From the IMG/VR virus record IMGVR_UViG_3300006810_008231, positions 1-48,111 of that record: a stretch of 48,111 nucleotides of DNA. One strand, written 5' to 3'. The position numbers were made by a program, and so were the translations under genes. Shown in pieces: positions 13,045 through 45,236 of this stretch; positions within the stretch are counted from its first letter, which is position 1; the number at the start of each line of letters is the position of its first letter. A model generated the notes under the pieces. The model made no database searches. It was not told the DNA's origin and worked only from the letters and a program-made list of their open reading frames with translations. The DNA comes from a virus.

Positions 13045-14613
13045 TTAAATCTCATGAATTTTTTCAATAATAAACGAATTATCACCCTTTTTGACTTCCC
13101 CGCAGAATAAAAGGTTGTTACCCTCGTATAGCATATATTCATATTTCTGTCTAGTTTCCGGAAAGACTACAACACTATCAAGCATACAAGTCTCATCTTC
13201 AATTGTCAAGAAACACATGAGTTGCCCCGGATTCTTTCCGTTCTTAGTCTTGACAGTATTGATACGAATAATATTACCAGCCACACATAGATTGCCGCCA
13301 TATTTACCATCAACAATTTCTTTACACGTTGTAGTAGCAGCCGAGGTATCAGCCGCGTCTATTCTTGATAGAGAAACGGGACACCCTAAAAACTTAATTT
13401 CCTGATCAATAATCCAAGATGGATCATCATCAAGGCTAAATGGTGGATTGTCAATCATTTCGATTTCATTTTGAATTGTTTGACTGCGTGCAACCGTGCT
13501 CGTGCCGCCGCCTTGTTTTTTAGTGGGGGCAATATCTGTAAAACAATCTTTTAGACTAACCCATTCTTTAGCGGAATAATTATTGTTAACCCATTCTTGT
13601 TCTTTTTTAGTCAGGATGCGGAAAATCTCATACTCATATAATGCTTTATTTCTAGATACTCCAGTAGACTTTGTACTGAAGAAACCTATAGATGCTAGGG
13701 CTTTAAAAGATGTAGAGTTTATTTTTGGCGATAGATAGATTAGAACATCCATCCACGAAAAATCTCTGGATGGTTTACCTAATTCTTCTTCTACAGACTT
13801 AACAGTTTCTATAACCTTGTCGCCAGATACTCCAGTAAGCGATTTAATATCTTTGACACCAAAGTATATATCATCACCAAATGCTTCAAACTTTTGGCTG
13901 AAACGTGTCAGGCTTGGAACTTTTACTTCAATGTTGAATAGTTTAGCTTCTGATACAAGTTCATAGATTTCTTGGTGGGGATCTTGCTTGTCAGCAGCAT
14001 GATATAGATAAGATAGAAAAAACTCTTTAGTGTGATTAGCTTTATACCAAGCTGTATGGTATGCGTTTACTGCGTATGAGACACTGTGAGATTTATTAAA
14101 TGCATATCGTGAAGATTTTTCAATCCAGCCAAAGATATCCTCAGCAATTTTCTTTTTAACAATTCCAGTATTAACGCAGCCGCTGATAAACTTAGTTTTA
14201 ATTTTAGCCATCAGGTCGGCTTTTTTCTTACCAATAGCTTTTCTTAGTTCATCTGCTTCTTTAAGATCAAACCCAGCCAATTTCTGAGCGATACGCATTG
14301 ACTGCTCTTGATATACTAGAACTCCATATGTTGCCTTTAGTACATCTTCAAGTGAATTGTCAAGATATGTAACCTTATCTCGTCCATGTTTTCTATCAAC
14401 ATAGTGTTGAGTCATGGATTTACCATCTGTAATAGCTTTAAGGGTGCCGGGTCTGATGATAGCTATAAGAGCCGATAACTCTTCAATATTAGACGGAGCT
14501 AGTCTCTTCGACCACGCTTTACCTAGATTACTCTCTAGCTGAAATACGCCCTTAGTATATCCGTTCTTAAACAGATCCCAAGTCTTTTCATCCTGAAAGT
14601 TAATATCAGACAT
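13045..14613 (-). CDS. dnaE: DNA polymerase III alpha, C-terminal half (split gene)
   Basis: A 522-residue piece of a bacterial-type replicative polymerase. It begins at the point that follows the third catalytic Asp region in intact DnaE: GVFQLESNLGKAW, then VVYQEQ-like LVYQEQSMRIAQKL, LRKAIGKKKADLMAKI and SSRYAFNKSHSVSYAVNAYH, all thumb/fingers signatures, followed by a helix-hairpin region and an OB domain at the end. I use the ATG at 14613, which overlaps the exonuclease stop by eight bases; the longer reading begins with TTG. The catalytic Asp residues are in the other half (16034-17650). No intein is seen. Confidence 0.88.
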   Translation of the reverse strand: MSDINFQDEKTWDLFKNGYTKGVFQLESNLGKAWSKRLAPSNIEELSALIAIIRPGTLKAITDGKSMTQHYVDRKHGRDKVTYLDNSLEDVLKATYGVLVYQEQSMRIAQKLAGFDLKEADELRKAIGKKKADLMAKIKTKFISGCVNTGIVKKKIAEDIFGWIEKSSRYAFNKSHSVSYAVNAYHTAWYKANHTKEFFLSYLYHAADKQDPHQEIYELVSEAKLFNIEVKVPSLTRFSQKFEAFGDDIYFGVKDIKSLTGVSGDKVIETVKSVEEELGKPSRDFSWMDVLIYLSPKINSTSFKALASIGFFSTKSTGVSRNKALYEYEIFRILTKKEQEWVNNNYSAKEWVSLKDCFTDIAPTKKQGGGTSTVARSQTIQNEIEMIDNPPFSLDDDPSWIIDQEIKFLGCPVSLSRIDAADTSAATTTCKEIVDGKYGGNLCVAGNIIRINTVKTKNGKNPGQLMCFLTIEDETCMLDSVVVFPETRQKYEYMLYEGNNLLFCGEVKKGDNSFIIEKIHEI

Positions 14614-15283
14614 ACAAATCCCCGTTAGCAAATGCTTTATCAACTTTTAAATTACGGTATACAGCCCTGTGCGTCTTCATAAATTTAATCATTACATTAG
14701 CTGTATCTTTTACGTCCTGTAGAGCATCGTGTGCATTTTCAGATGATAGACCCATACGTTCACGTAGGCTATCCATGCTAATAGATTTTACATTAGGGTC
14801 GCCTTCAGTCCACATGAAAACATTATCCATTACATCAATTTTATAAATCTGATGAAATAGCTTCTGCCGTTCACGCTTATCATCCCACGGTCCAAATTCT
14901 TTACATAGTCTGTCTATAATAATCATATCATATCCAAGTATATTAAACCCAGCCGGTATTGGGGCAAAGAATGAAGTTCCCTTCCAGTTGTACTTATCAA
15001 CAAACTGAGTAAACTTTTTCCATACAGTTTTTAGGTGTGGAGCCTTAGCTATTTGTTCTCTGGTTTTACCAGTAACCTTTAATGCTCCTTCTTCAATTGG
15101 TCCAAGACCTTTTGCGATAGCTTTCTCGTCATCTACTTCGGCACGTATTTCGCTGTTGAATGTACCCTTCAGCTTGAAATTTCTACCATCAAGTGCTAAT
15201 GCAGCCAACTGCGTGGGTTGACATATTCTTGGGTCTCTACCACCTGTTTCAAAGTCAAATACGATCAAATCTCTATTAGCCAT
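14606..15283 (-). CDS. DnaQ-like DEDDh 3'-5' exonuclease
   Basis: A 225-residue proofreading-type exonuclease. The first acidic pair is in IVFDFETGG (residues 8-16), the second region is GFNILGYDMIIIDRLC (exo II, with Asp), and HDALQDVKDTANVM carries the exo III His and Asp. The family removes mismatched 3' ends during replication. It lies between the two polymerase halves and overlaps the downstream half by eight bases, so it is probably the proofreading partner of the split polymerase. The start ATG 15283 follows the HNH gene by ten bases. Confidence 0.9.
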   Translation of the reverse strand: MANRDLIVFDFETGGRDPRICQPTQLAALALDGRNFKLKGTFNSEIRAEVDDEKAIAKGLGPIEEGALKVTGKTREQIAKAPHLKTVWKKFTQFVDKYNWKGTSFFAPIPAGFNILGYDMIIIDRLCKEFGPWDDKRERQKLFHQIYKIDVMDNVFMWTEGDPNVKSISMDSLRERMGLSSENAHDALQDVKDTANVMIKFMKTHRAVYRNLKVDKAFANGDLYV

Positions 15284-15293
15284 GTGTTTTCCT

Positions 15294-15986
15294 TTAATTA
15301 AGTCCTTGATAATTAGTTATGAGTCTGCACATATCTATAAACTCTTTTTGTTGCAAATCCCATTTCATTTGATTTACCTTTTTGTGGAGCCATTGGACAT
15401 TCCCTTCAATATACCCTTTACTTGGGTCTATTCTATCTAACGAAGCTGTAGCTCTCTGCTTGCTCTTGTTTGTTATAGCAAAGTGTATTGGTTGTCCTGA
15501 TATAGAGCATCTCTTCCCTTGTTTAACAAATAAATCCCAAGCATATTCAATAGTTATGTCAAATTCTAAATTTCTTTTTTTTGCTTCACGTATTACCCTG
15601 CCCCAGTATGAGTGGCGAATATCTTTATATCCACGATACTGCTCATGATCTTTTCCTCTTTTTCTGGATGTACATCCACAACTTTTAGTGTTTCCAGTAG
15701 ACAAGCAGTGGTTTCTTACATCTATTTCTTTACCACAGACACAGACACATCTGAAGACGGCATGACTTTTATCGTCATATCCAACAAGGTGTATTGGTAT
15801 TAAATCTCCAAACGTTTTACCTACATATCTGTCTCTAATATCCTTTCGTATCCCAAACTCTTTCATCTTCTTAGAGATACAAGCCTCAGATACCCCGAAG
15901 TATTTTGCTACTTCTCTTTGCTTCTTACCTTCTATCAACACCATCCTTTTTAATGTTGAATGCGTGATGTCTTCTCGTTTTTTCAT
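15294..15986 (-). CDS. HNH endonuclease, homing-type
   Basis: A 230-residue protein with an N-terminal helix-turn-helix-like segment (GKKQREVAKYFGVSEACISK), a Cys cluster (FRCVCVCGKE and KSCGCTSRKRG, a zinc-finger-like pattern) and an HNH core, GKRCSISGQPIHF then SLDRIDPSKGYIEGNVQWLH. The order matches phage HNH homing endonucleases. It sits exactly between the polymerase N-half and the exonuclease gene, with a strong AAGGAG ribosome site and a TATAAATA box upstream. Such genes move and often lie at gene splits, so it may have helped break dnaE. Its recognition site cannot be read from sequence. Confidence 0.85.
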   Translation of the reverse strand: MKKREDITHSTLKRMVLIEGKKQREVAKYFGVSEACISKKMKEFGIRKDIRDRYVGKTFGDLIPIHLVGYDDKSHAVFRCVCVCGKEIDVRNHCLSTGNTKSCGCTSRKRGKDHEQYRGYKDIRHSYWGRVIREAKKRNLEFDITIEYAWDLFVKQGKRCSISGQPIHFAITNKSKQRATASLDRIDPSKGYIEGNVQWLHKKVNQMKWDLQQKEFIDMCRLITNYQGLN

Positions 15987-16015
15987 AGATAGCTCCTTGT
16001 TAAGTTTGATCTATC

Positions 16016-16023
16016 TATTTATA
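16016..16023 (-). promoter_or_regulatory. TATAAATA box before the HNH endonuclease
   Basis: On the minus strand TATAAATA lies 29 bases upstream of the endonuclease ATG. It is identical to the late promoter box of T4-type phages, which lacks a -35 element and is often found before homing endonucleases. I see no -35 box at the proper spacing. This phage carries a small sigma factor (39402-39887), so a late-type promoter is possible, but a single match of eight AT-rich bases is weak evidence. Confidence 0.4.
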
Positions 16024-16033
16024 CACGAAAAAG

Positions 16034-17650
16034 TCATTTCGCTTGGTTTTCTTCTAGTAACTCCTGTATGTGCATAACTTTATCTAATAACGAGAGTCCG
16101 AGCAAGTCGAACTTAACATGTCCAAGTGCTTCTAAATCTGCCATTTCTAATCCAGCGATTTTTTCTCCACCGCTACGTTGGTTGACCATTGGGCATACTT
16201 TATGTAATGGCTCGGCTGAAATAACAACACCAGCAGCATGTTTTCCCTGAGTCTTAAACGTGCCCTCTATTTCAATTGCCTGCTTAAAAAACTCTGCATA
16301 GTCACCATCAAGATCTCCATTGTCGTTAATGAAACAAAAATCACGGAGGTCGTCAGCGTTATTGATTAATGCCCATCTGATTATAGAACGTTCATCTTCA
16401 TCCATTTCCTGTAGCTGATCGGAAATAGCCGCCTCGTCTGGTATAGACTTAGTAATTTCATTCATTTCACTAAAGCTACACACATCACTGATGCGTAAAA
16501 CTTCTTTAACGGCGCTGCGACCCTGCAATCTTCCAAATGTAAGCATCTGACTTACGTTGTCTTTTCCATAAGTAGATTTAAGATACTCAATGATATCATC
16601 ACGCTTATTAGCTGGAACATCCATATCAATATCTGGAAGGGAATCTGTACGGGCTGCATTATAAAACCTTTCAAATAATAAGTCAAACTCAATTGGGTCA
16701 ATCTGAGTGATTTCAATCAAGTATGAAATAAGACAACCGGCAGCAGACCCTCTACCCGGACCCGCTAACCATCCTTGACTTTTTACATATCGGATAATAT
16801 CTTGCACGATTAGAAAATATCCAAATAACTTAGCTTGATTAATAACATCAAATTCAGTTGTAAATCTATCAAGATACTTCTGCTTGTCGCCTTCTTTATC
16901 TACCTTGCCTGTTTTAGACAGGAATTTCACCCATCCATTACGGCATAGCTGCTTCAGATATTCTTCTTCTGACTGTCCAGTTGGAGTTGGAAACTTTGGC
17001 AGCATTGGCGGATTAAGAATTTCGTAATCTTCGCACAGGTTGTAGATTTTCTCTAAACACAATTGTCCGTATTCATCATCTGGCATCTCGCTATTGGACT
17101 TAACATAGAACGTGTCTTTAATGAAAAACTCTTCATTTTGTTCTAGTTTACCAGATCTTAACAATGTATTTACTTTAGGTAAAGTGGTCTTCATGGCGGA
17201 ACATAGAAGTATTCTATGGAGATGTGCATCGTCTTTCTCAACATAATGTGACGGGGTTGTAAGCGGGTTATGCTTGAATGTAAGCGAATCGTCACATGGG
17301 GACTTATCATGCGTCAGGCATATCAGATTTCCACGTTTACAGATATTTTCAGTAATATGAAAATACTCATTGCCTTCCGGGCTTAACGAGGAAACAATCT
17401 CAATTAAATTGAACCAACCCTGTTTATTCTTTGCGAACAGAGTATAATGATCAAAGGAGCAGCCAATAATTGGCTTGATATTATTATCCTTGCATGTCTT
17501 ATAAAATGATACAGCACCGGATATAGATTTGTAATCTGATATACCGCAGGCTGGATATTCATTCTCAACGCATTTCTTGGACAATTGTTTAGGTTTTGAG
17601 AAACCTTTTAGAAGTGAATAATGTGTATAGTTGCAAAGTGGGTATTTCAT
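16034..17650 (-). CDS. dnaE: DNA polymerase III alpha, N-terminal half (split gene)
   Basis: A 538-residue protein. It starts with a PHP domain (NYTHYSLLKGFSKPKQLSKK, ACGISDYKSISG, IKPIIGCSFD) and continues with the palm: GWLAGPGRGSAAGCLISYL, the catalytic pair in LPDIDMDVPANKRDDIIEYL, FGRLQGRSAVKEVLRI, and the third catalytic Asp in VKFDLLGLSLLDKV near the end. It then stops where an intact DnaE would continue into the fingers; that part is at 13045-14613. It has a promoter and RNA element B upstream. The two halves must associate to make a working polymerase. Confidence 0.88.
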   Translation of the reverse strand: MKYPLCNYTHYSLLKGFSKPKQLSKKCVENEYPACGISDYKSISGAVSFYKTCKDNNIKPIIGCSFDHYTLFAKNKQGWFNLIEIVSSLSPEGNEYFHITENICKRGNLICLTHDKSPCDDSLTFKHNPLTTPSHYVEKDDAHLHRILLCSAMKTTLPKVNTLLRSGKLEQNEEFFIKDTFYVKSNSEMPDDEYGQLCLEKIYNLCEDYEILNPPMLPKFPTPTGQSEEEYLKQLCRNGWVKFLSKTGKVDKEGDKQKYLDRFTTEFDVINQAKLFGYFLIVQDIIRYVKSQGWLAGPGRGSAAGCLISYLIEITQIDPIEFDLLFERFYNAARTDSLPDIDMDVPANKRDDIIEYLKSTYGKDNVSQMLTFGRLQGRSAVKEVLRISDVCSFSEMNEITKSIPDEAAISDQLQEMDEDERSIIRWALINNADDLRDFCFINDNGDLDGDYAEFFKQAIEIEGTFKTQGKHAAGVVISAEPLHKVCPMVNQRSGGEKIAGLEMADLEALGHVKFDLLGLSLLDKVMHIQELLEENQAK

Positions 17651-43771: not shown

Positions 43772-43960
43772 CTAAAAGTTATCCGACACAACGTCAGATG
43801 ATATTGGTTCTAGTTTTTCAAGTTCTGCCTTGCCTTCCGAAAGGTAAGATTCAAGATTACTGATCTCGGCGTCTAGCTTTTGCTTTTGCTCCCGAAGCAT
43901 CAGAATCTGATTTTGAACATTGACTAGATGTGCCTTAGACATTTCTGTTAGCGTTGGCAT
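43772..43960 (-). CDS. Small coiled-coil protein
   Basis: A 62-residue protein, mostly one amphipathic helix (NVQNQILMLREQKQKLDAEI, SNLESYLSEGKAELEKLEP), probably a coiled-coil dimer. AGGAGAAG lies just upstream of the ATG. Directly 5' is the TATAAT box of 43972-43999. It is the first gene after the structured RNA and might be a partner or regulator of nearby products; no function is known. Confidence 0.6.
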   Translation of the reverse strand: MPTLTEMSKAHLVNVQNQILMLREQKQKLDAEISNLESYLSEGKAELEKLEPISSDVVSDNF

Positions 43961-43971
43961 TCTCTTCTCCT

Positions 43972-43999
43972 ATTATAGTCTGGAAACGGTGATTTTCAA
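43972..43999 (-). promoter_or_regulatory. Promoter-like sequence overlapping the ribosome site of the coiled-coil gene
   Basis: TTGAAA (43999-43994), 16-base spacer, TATAAT (43977-43972) and then AGGAGAAGAGAATG. If used, the transcript would start only about five bases before the ATG and would lose its AGGAG. That makes normal use doubtful; leaderless initiation or a chance match are alternatives. The -35 lies inside the hairpin GATTTTCA/TGAAAATC. Confidence 0.4.
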
Positions 44000-44021: not shown

Positions 44022-44050
44022 AAAAAATCACTAACCGAGAATCTCGGTTC
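44022..44050 (-). terminator. Terminator-like hairpin at the 3' end of the structured RNA
   Basis: Minus strand: AACCGAG (44049-44043) with CTCGGTT (44039-44033), three-base loop, then AGTGATTTTTTC. A T run follows after five bases. The right arm CTCGGTT could instead pair with AACCGAG near the RNA's 5' end, so folding of the whole RNA and termination may compete. Confidence 0.55.
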
Positions 44051-44443
44051 TGTAAAGATACACCACGGGTTTTTAGGGTCATAATACCCCCACTCGGTAA
44101 GATGTCAGCTAGGGTAGTGATAGAATATTTATCTCAAAACTCTTTCGAGTATGACCCTCTAGGTTGATCCTCATCAGAGCCTAGATTCTTGCAAGATAAA
44201 TTTTTATCAGTCGGCAGGATTTGTGAGATCCATCGGGGTCCGGTTTATTACTTTTACCATAATAAACTTATTGAAGGTTTGGCTACCTTCCGGCCTCTAC
44301 CTTACGTACATTATGTGGTACGCCTGTGTCTTCCGAACTCTCTCAATCAGGGTAGGAGAGCTATACCTCACCAGTTACTCTTTTGTACAATTTCGATTCA
44401 AGCAAGCTCGGTTGACGATCTTACCTTTCGGTAATCATACTCT
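44022..44443 (-). ncRNA. Candidate large structured RNA (about 420 nt)
   Basis: A gene-free stretch transcribed on the minus strand from a good promoter (44444-44472). Pairings read as RNA (window coordinates): UUACC-GAAA-GGUAA (44434-44421, GNRA loop), CUCUC/GAGAG (44360-44356 with 44344-44340), CGUAC/GUACG (44322-44318 with 44309-44305), GAAGGU/ACCUUC (44290-44285 with 44278-44273), the 8-bp stem GUUUAUUA/UAAUAAAC (44267-44260 with 44250-44243), UCUAGG/CCUAGA (44185-44180 with 44163-44158), ACUC-GAAA-GAGU (44150-44139, GNRA loop) and the long-range GGGUCAUA/UAUGACCC (44157-44150 with 44083-44076). AACCGAG (44413-44407) could close the molecule with CUCGGUU (44039-44033). It does not match tRNA, tmRNA, RNase P, 6S or intron motifs I know. 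Confidence 0.65.
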
Positions 44444-44472
44444 ATTATAGCGTTGGCCAGATATTTTTCCAA
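44444..44472 (-). promoter_or_regulatory. Sigma-70-type promoter of the structured RNA
   Basis: TTGGAA (44472-44467), 17-base spacer, TATAAT (44449-44444), then AGAGTATG. It directly follows the stop of the small gene 44474-44686. Same pattern as the promoters at 13016 and 17735 (TTGNNN-17-TATAATAG). Confidence 0.7.
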
Positions 44473-44473
44473 A

Positions 44474-44686
44474 TTAAAATTCCCCATGTTTAAGGAATTT
44501 CATTAATTCCTCGTGTGACCAAATATCTTCAAATTGACCATCAGTCGCCATGATTGCCAGTTCTCGATAATTTTCGTACATTGTAAGGAATTCTTCTGCA
44601 ATTTTTCTAGTACCAAATTGTCTCAGAGTTTCTTCAGCGTGTGAGGTCATTCGGTTTATCTTTTCACCCCTTGAGATACCACTCAT
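44474..44686 (-). CDS. Small helical protein
   Basis: A 70-residue protein, mainly helical (HAEETLRQFGTRKIAEEFLT, MYENYRELAIMATDGQF), with no motif I recognise. It overlaps the nuclease gene upstream by four bases and ends at the promoter of the structured RNA. Possibly an accessory protein; function unknown. Confidence 0.55.
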   Translation of the reverse strand: MSGISRGEKINRMTSHAEETLRQFGTRKIAEEFLTMYENYRELAIMATDGQFEDIWSHEELMKFLKHGEF

Positions 44687-45204
44687 AATTTCTCCATTTT
44701 AGAAGCTGGAACAATGTAATTCATAGGCTTTCCAATGCCATACCGGCGTTTTACCTTAAATTTATCAAAATTTTCTCTCGTGATTTTTCCAAGAATTTGA
44801 ATAATTCCATTGGAACTATCAAATCTTGTTAATACATAAAGTTTTGGTGGTTTTCTAGTCTCGTATTCCCTTACGGGAATCTTTAATTCTGGCTCACCAG
44901 AACCCATATAAGTAATAGTCTTTACTTCTATTCCATTAAAGTCCTCTCCACCGTCTCTCACTGCGTAAATTTCCTCATCTACGGAGTCACCTGTTGCAAT
45001 AGCCCATCCGAGTTCACCTAGAACACCTAGAAAATGAGCCATATATTGGCGGTCAATGTCCATCTTGTCCGCAATTTTTGTTTTAGCACGATTGCTAAAT
45101 AGTTTTGTATCTTTGTTTCTAAAAGATGAATGTTTAGCATCATGTCTTTTAATAGCTAAATCAACAGCATAGTTTAGTTGTTCTTTATTTAACTGTATGT
45201 TCAT
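44683..45204 (-). CDS. PD-(D/E)XK-type nuclease-like protein
   Basis: A 173-residue protein. The segment GGEDFNGIEVKTITYMGSGE has the D-x(n)-E-x-K pattern of PD-(D/E)XK nucleases, after a helix with a conserved Glu (FLGVLGELGWAIATGD). KLYVLTRFDSSNG is a following strand. It resembles restriction-enzyme-like proteins in phages. ATG 45204 has GGAG upstream; its promoter is at 45237-45264. Specificity is unknown. Confidence 0.6.
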   Translation of the reverse strand: MNIQLNKEQLNYAVDLAIKRHDAKHSSFRNKDTKLFSNRAKTKIADKMDIDRQYMAHFLGVLGELGWAIATGDSVDEEIYAVRDGGEDFNGIEVKTITYMGSGEPELKIPVREYETRKPPKLYVLTRFDSSNGIIQILGKITRENFDKFKVKRRYGIGKPMNYIVPASKMEKL

Positions 45205-45236
45205 TCTGATCTCCAATGTTTGGGTGATACACCGCT

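Follow-up and report, generated by a model that had tools for sequence, protein, structure and literature searches.

A conserved structured RNA in a gene-free gap of a phage genome, with a pseudoknotted core that likely recurs in unrelated phages

A gene-free gap with its own transcription signals

The phage sequence analyzed here (IMG/VR virus record IMGVR_UViG_3300006810_008231, positions 1 to 48,111; hereafter the window, 48,111 bases, 37% G+C) carries nearly all of its phage DNA-metabolism genes on the minus strand, and has a gap, 44022-44443, that holds no gene-like ORF between a 70-aa ORF (44474-44686, minus) and a 62-aa ORF (Table 1). Two plus-strand ORFs listed within the gap show no conservation in homologues, and no conserved open frame was found on either strand, the longest frames in homologues scattering about the shuffle mean. 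The minus strand of the gap is more stably folded than its shuffles (z -2.99; 1 of 100 shuffles), with weaker folding on the plus strand (z -1.84, 7 of 100).

Promoter and terminator of the putative RNA gene both lie on the minus strand. The preliminary description had taken the gap for a gene-free transcript with a TTGGAA-17-TATAAT promoter at one end and a hairpin with T run at the other; both signals were found, and the absence of gene-like ORFs and of conserved coding potential upholds the gene-free reading. In 14 of 17 scanned sequences, a TATAAT box precedes the first conserved motif by 39-54 nt, the exceptions including one copy that starts at a contig end (L177) and one without a box (L026); L109 does have a TATAAT, which the scanning script did not credit. 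In the window copy, a -35 box and terminator are also present, and the 1.8-kb region contains seven terminator-like sites (vs 0.8 expected). From these promoter and terminator sequences alone, and with no RNA data, we infer that the gap holds an independently transcribed RNA gene; the transcript and its ends are likewise inferred.

Some features of the surroundings were noted in passing. A TCGGTRG-like box stands directly 5' of the -10 TATAAT in L031, L039, L083, L109, and L168, and is possibly a phage-specific promoter element. The 177-aa gene 5' of the RNA (44683-45216, minus) looks PD-(D/E)XK nuclease-like by eye, with no Pfam or PHROG match. The DNA polymerase of the window (phrog_405; 13045-17650, minus) is split into two ORFs, between which lie two others (14606-15283 and 15294-15986), and some of its cultured hits are annotated as DNA polymerase III alpha.

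Table 1. Features of the RNA locus in the window, with the basis of each assignment
Feature	Position	Strand	Basis
Inferred structured non-coding RNA, about 415 nt	44022..44437	-	promoter and terminator, homologues on other contigs, covariation
RNA promoter TTGGAA-17-TATAAT	44444..44472	-	sequence; TATAAT position repeated in relatives
5' domain hairpin	44347..44369	-	AGGU-loop-ACCU in relatives, diverged in window to GGUA...UACC
Helix P_A, 5' strand	44297..44303	-	pairs with 44111-44117
Hairpin H1	44273..44290	-	near-invariant loop UARCCAAA, covarying stem
Optional variable hairpin	44243..44267	-	other sequence or missing in relatives
GACCC element	44235..44240	-	alternative partner of PK 5' strand, idea only
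Hairpin H3, conserved loop CUCACAA	44217..44231	-	both-sided changes at 4/4 pairs
Core helix P1, 5' strand	44193..44208	-	pairs with 44119-44135
Core hairpin P2/P2b, CUAGG-CUC-UGAU-GAGG-AUCA-A-CCUAG	44159..44184	-	100% of cells paired, both-sided changes
Pseudoknot PK, 5' strand GGGUCAU	44151..44157	-	covaries with 44076-44082
CUCGAAAGAG tetraloop hairpin inside P1	44140..44149	-	similar hairpin in most relatives
Core helix P1, 3' strand	44119..44135	-	strand-swap test
Helix P_A, 3' strand	44111..44117	-	covariation
Pseudoknot PK, 3' strand AUGACCC	44076..44082	-	covariation
Conserved tail UAAAAACCCGUG	44064..44075	-	its CC proposed to pair with GG of P2b loop
Intrinsic terminator, hairpin AACCGAG-ATT-CTCGGTT then T run	44033..44049	-	sequence
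Separate promoter TTGAAA-16-TATAAT of the next gene (62-aa ORF)	43972..43999	-	sequence
62-aa coiled-coil-like ORF, next gene 3' of RNA, outside RNA	43772..43960	-	found in both RNA-carrying and RNA-lacking relatives

Covarying helices in the window's phage group

Relatives were first reached through the downstream 108-aa gene; among these, L007 and L008 are DNA-similar inside the gap, and further homologues came from motif scans, a nucleotide profile, and a covariance model. RNA homologues are present in the window and on 18 other phage contigs (L002, L007, L008, L026, L027, L031, L032, L039, L051, L083, L109, L168 [= L030 + L052], L174, L177, L181, L182, L185, and L191). L002 is a strain 98.9% identical to the window, L026 equals L027 over the printed stretch, and L174, L181, and L182 are near-identical. 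Because search patterns were taken from the first homologues, selection accounts in part for how conserved the searched motifs look; this bias does not touch L191 or the pairings that the patterns did not cover. BLAST searches of cultured phages with the window RNA and six homologues or distant members returned nothing or short chance-like matches, and the flanking proteins have no relatives in cultured phages. The sole match in genome contigs, in a Thaumarchaeota MAG (L117), looks like a chance coding match and was rejected. Two RNA-carrying relatives also have tmRNA genes (L051:8151-8364, minus; L032:1-170, plus), one of them of the permuted type.

Covariation was counted on a MAFFT alignment of 14 homologues over seven helices (36 base pairs, 498 cells), using shuffles that ignore relatedness. 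Of these cells 94.8% are paired, vs 82% in shuffles, and both-sided changes occur at 22 pairs and 75 cells (vs 12 and 24). None of 500 shuffles scored as high on any of five measures, and slid registers were all far lower. Support is best for P_A, H1, H3, P2/P2b, and the 7-bp long-range pseudoknot PK. Both-sided changes affect six of the seven pairs of P_A (AAGGCUC/GAGCCUU and variants), and PK stays paired through GGGUCAU/AUGACCC, GAGUCAU/AUGACUC (L109), GGGUCAA/UUGACCC (L083), and GGGUGAA/UUCACCC (L177 and L185). The 5' domain hairpin is paired in 94.6% of cells, but with little variation.

Helix P1 was too variable for MAFFT, and RNAalifold on that alignment missed it, so it was tested by strand swapping: duplexes of a sequence's own strands average -19.6 kcal/mol, vs -14.2 for strands swapped between sequences. 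P1 is not individually outstanding in the window, L039, L052, L065/L073, L109, L135, or L144. The GACCC element 5' of P1 keeps a fixed place in the group and is altered in step in L109. Its competition with the PK 3' strand as a folding switch is possible as an idea only; its pairing with the PK 5' strand is not above chance in any single sequence and is unsupported outside the window group.

The stems conserved in related phages, with their strong covariation, make it near certain that the gap RNA is a conserved structured RNA. They coincide in part with those proposed in the preliminary description, which had missed P_A, H1, H3, P1, and P2. Its long-range pair GGGTCAT/ATGACCC is conserved and covaries, and its CUCGAAAGAG hairpin holds a conserved position, in similar form in most relatives. 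The 8-bp stem GUUUAUUA does mark a hairpin site in relatives, but one that is optional and variable in sequence there. Neither the 5' GAAA hairpin UUACCGAAAGGUAA nor the 5'/3' closing stem AACCGAG/CUCGGUU is conserved beyond the near-identical L002.

A compact core in other phage lineages

In the architecture we propose, the 3' half of the RNA would form a compact core in which P1 encloses hairpin P2 and the PK 5' strand, with the PK 3' strand lying 3' of P1 and followed by an AAA-NN tail that would dock on the P2 loop by two base pairs; the 5' domain and helices P_A, H1, and H3 would elaborate this core in the window's group. Elsewhere the order is P1, P2 with a three-by-one internal loop, the PK 5' strand right after P2, the PK 3' strand 3' of P1, and then an A-rich tail.

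About six further phage-contig lineages carry the core, recognized through P2-motif matches (L065/L073/L088, L069, L127, L134, L135, and L156), and the covariance model led to two more cores in the 174-kb contig G001 (L195 and L200), whose pseudoknots span 11 and 10 bp and whose loops and tails differ. PK sequences in the distant members are CCATTGCAC, GCCTGTAGTA, ACCTGTAAAGA, and ACCTGTGAAG, and in the cores recognized through the P2 motif single PK matches are rarely reached by shuffling (0 to 21 of 1000). Since the distant members were mostly found by the P2-motif search, their P2 conservation is not independent evidence. A descriptor with free loop sequence, a tail complementary to the last two loop bases, PK ≥ 7, and stem ≥ 5 matched 20 distinct sites in 4.3 Mb, vs 0 and 2 in two dinucleotide-shuffled copies. 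The 20 sites include strains of one lineage, and the 4.3 Mb were gathered by related searches; the counts show that the combination of features is specific, not how frequent it is. Recurrence of the core in unrelated phages is likely.

Most members have GG:CC as their loop and tail bases, L195 has CG:CG, and L200 has CA:UG; the docking of the tail on the P2 loop is inferred from only these two variant sequences. The core is as compact as about 110 nt in L156, and in L073 (3660-4140, minus) a terminator-like hairpin with a U run stands immediately 5' of the PK 3' strand.

Other P2-motif sites were set aside. At L130 and L136 the motif comes with no PK and the sequence looks coding, L139 was rejected for lacking PK, and the L190 site lies inside an annotated microvirus protein. 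L144, from a microvirus and located before the capsid gene, is a possible member only, its bulged PK being no better than chance under an exact test. Readings of the GAGG loop as a CsrA or Shine-Dalgarno site were rejected, the loop being GNGG in the group (GCGG, GGGG, GUGG) and GGCG or GACA elsewhere.

Neighboring genes and possible roles

At gathering score, no Rfam 15 covariance model, including GOLLD, ROOL, OLE, and raiA, matched the window RNA, its homologues, or the distant members, and a lax Rfam search gave nothing plausible for any family, these four included, at E up to 10. ARAGORN and Rfam yielded no tmRNA or tRNA match for the RNA. The earlier reading of a gene-free structured transcript unlike the known ornate RNAs is thus supported by covariation, by the lack of a coding frame, and by the lack of an Rfam match. 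No description of the motif was found in open-access papers; subscription journals are not excluded. We take the RNA to be the first recognized member of a new RNA class, outside all described families. The novelty lies at the level of the RNA family: orphan structured phage RNAs are already a known phenomenon, and the function could prove to be of a known kind. GOLLD and ROOL are larger than the window RNA. They resemble it in being structured, pseudoknotted, phage-associated non-coding RNAs with some copies near tRNA genes and no established role (PMC12286853), but differ in that the window RNA has no Rfam match.

The surroundings of the RNA bear on whether it serves the gene next to it. In most of the window group, a small MAEAHLRNVQQQI-like ORF comes next, its start codon 4-45 nt after the conserved 3' end, a spacing that leaves no room for a separate promoter; in L177 and L185, the RNA runs straight into the ribosome binding site. 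In L134, L135, L156, and L144, a same-strand start codon follows within about 20-35 nt. Such coupling would suit a cis-regulatory leader, riboswitch-like or protein-responsive, that controls the gene directly downstream, with PK and tail near the ribosome binding site or terminator; in the window, the terminator indeed lies 3' of the core, and pairing between its 3' arm and the 5' AACCGAG is possible. Pseudoknotted translational riboswitches (preQ1-II and SAM-II) are likewise compact, often with the 3' strand near the ribosome binding site, but the RNA studied here lacks an Rfam match, has copies without a coupled gene, and has no known ligand.

Several observations make a leader doubtful as the general explanation. 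In the window and L032, the next gene is 94 and 145 nt off, with a promoter in between. No gene on the same strand is closely coupled to the copies in L195, L200, L127, and L069: flanking genes are on the opposite strand in L127 and L069, and L195 comes after a tRNA-Leu gene, with TTGACA-17-TATTAT upstream of its next gene. Downstream genes differ from lineage to lineage, and in at least 12 relatives no RNA was detected immediately upstream of the 62-aa/108-aa genes. About 16 kb separate the RNA of G002 from the 62-aa/108-aa locus, and it sits beside a different gene and 3' of three tRNA genes. A leader tied to the single-strand binding protein (SSB) operon is weakened by the occurrence of that operon without the RNA in other relatives. 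The translational operator of T4 gene 32 offers a likeness, being a pseudoknot that precedes a set of genes with a single-strand binding protein among them. That operator, however, is short and adjoins gene 32, whereas the SSB gene of the window is two ORFs further downstream and the RNA also occurs away from SSB. Since relatives can carry the RNA and the downstream operon apart from each other, and several RNA copies occur by themselves, action in trans is favored over service as a leader to one particular operon; in some lineages the RNA could still act as a leader.

Our best explanation, on which we consider the case evenly poised, is thus a structured non-coding RNA of ∼415 nt that is encoded by the phage, transcribed on its own, and acting in trans. 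Most likely it would work in trans during infection, serving as a folded scaffold to which a protein or the translation machinery binds, for which there are no partner data, and would not be tied as a leader to a single operon. The homologues, helices, pseudoknot, and promoter position are established by sequence comparison; the transcript and the action in trans are inferences.

A self-cleaving ribozyme, with transcript cleavage by a compact core whose internal-loop and tail nucleotides are invariant, is improbable, and there are no cleavage data. The small core, the two pseudoknot contacts, the conserved unpaired positions, and the lack of a fixed gene partner would fit, but neither the RNA nor its core matches any Rfam ribozyme family, no conserved candidate cleavage site was identified, and small ribozymes, to our knowledge, do not usually come in long, elaborated versions that have conserved 5' domains. 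In HDV-like ribozymes, a hairpin loop gives a comparable 2-bp contact to a nested pseudoknot, but the order of hairpin and pseudoknot strands is not the same, and the RNA has no Rfam match. Processive antitermination on the polymerase that made the RNA, as by the HK022 put RNA, is very improbable: the RNA does lie just 3' of a promoter, in the window just 5' of a terminator, and in L073 the terminator-like hairpin falls just before the PK 3' strand, but several copies have no same-strand operon downstream, and the put element consists of two simple hairpins without such a pseudoknot.

Beyond the window's group, we suggest only tentatively, and with less than even confidence, that the double-pseudoknot core defines a widespread class whose members serve unrelated phages as catalytic RNAs or as RNA machines working in trans, sometimes with two copies per genome. 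Its users would include GC-rich phages, possibly microviruses, and the window's group, which has its own polymerase. An RNA class shared by unrelated phages probably serves a general phage need, i.e. regulation, host takeover, or escape from host defenses. Its compact members are small enough for direct transcription, probing, and crystallization, and this candidate new kind of viral RNA is now open to testing.

Minor observations concern the two contigs G002 and G001. Several CGCTGACTGTNNAACANNTGGCGATGC-like repeat copies lie beside the tRNA cluster in G002 (L191, about 2200-2700). G001, which has two copies of the RNA, also encodes a Tat-signal-like protein (L202 core -2507 to -1224, minus) resembling what we take to be a planctomycete DUF1501 protein, a possible hint at the host.
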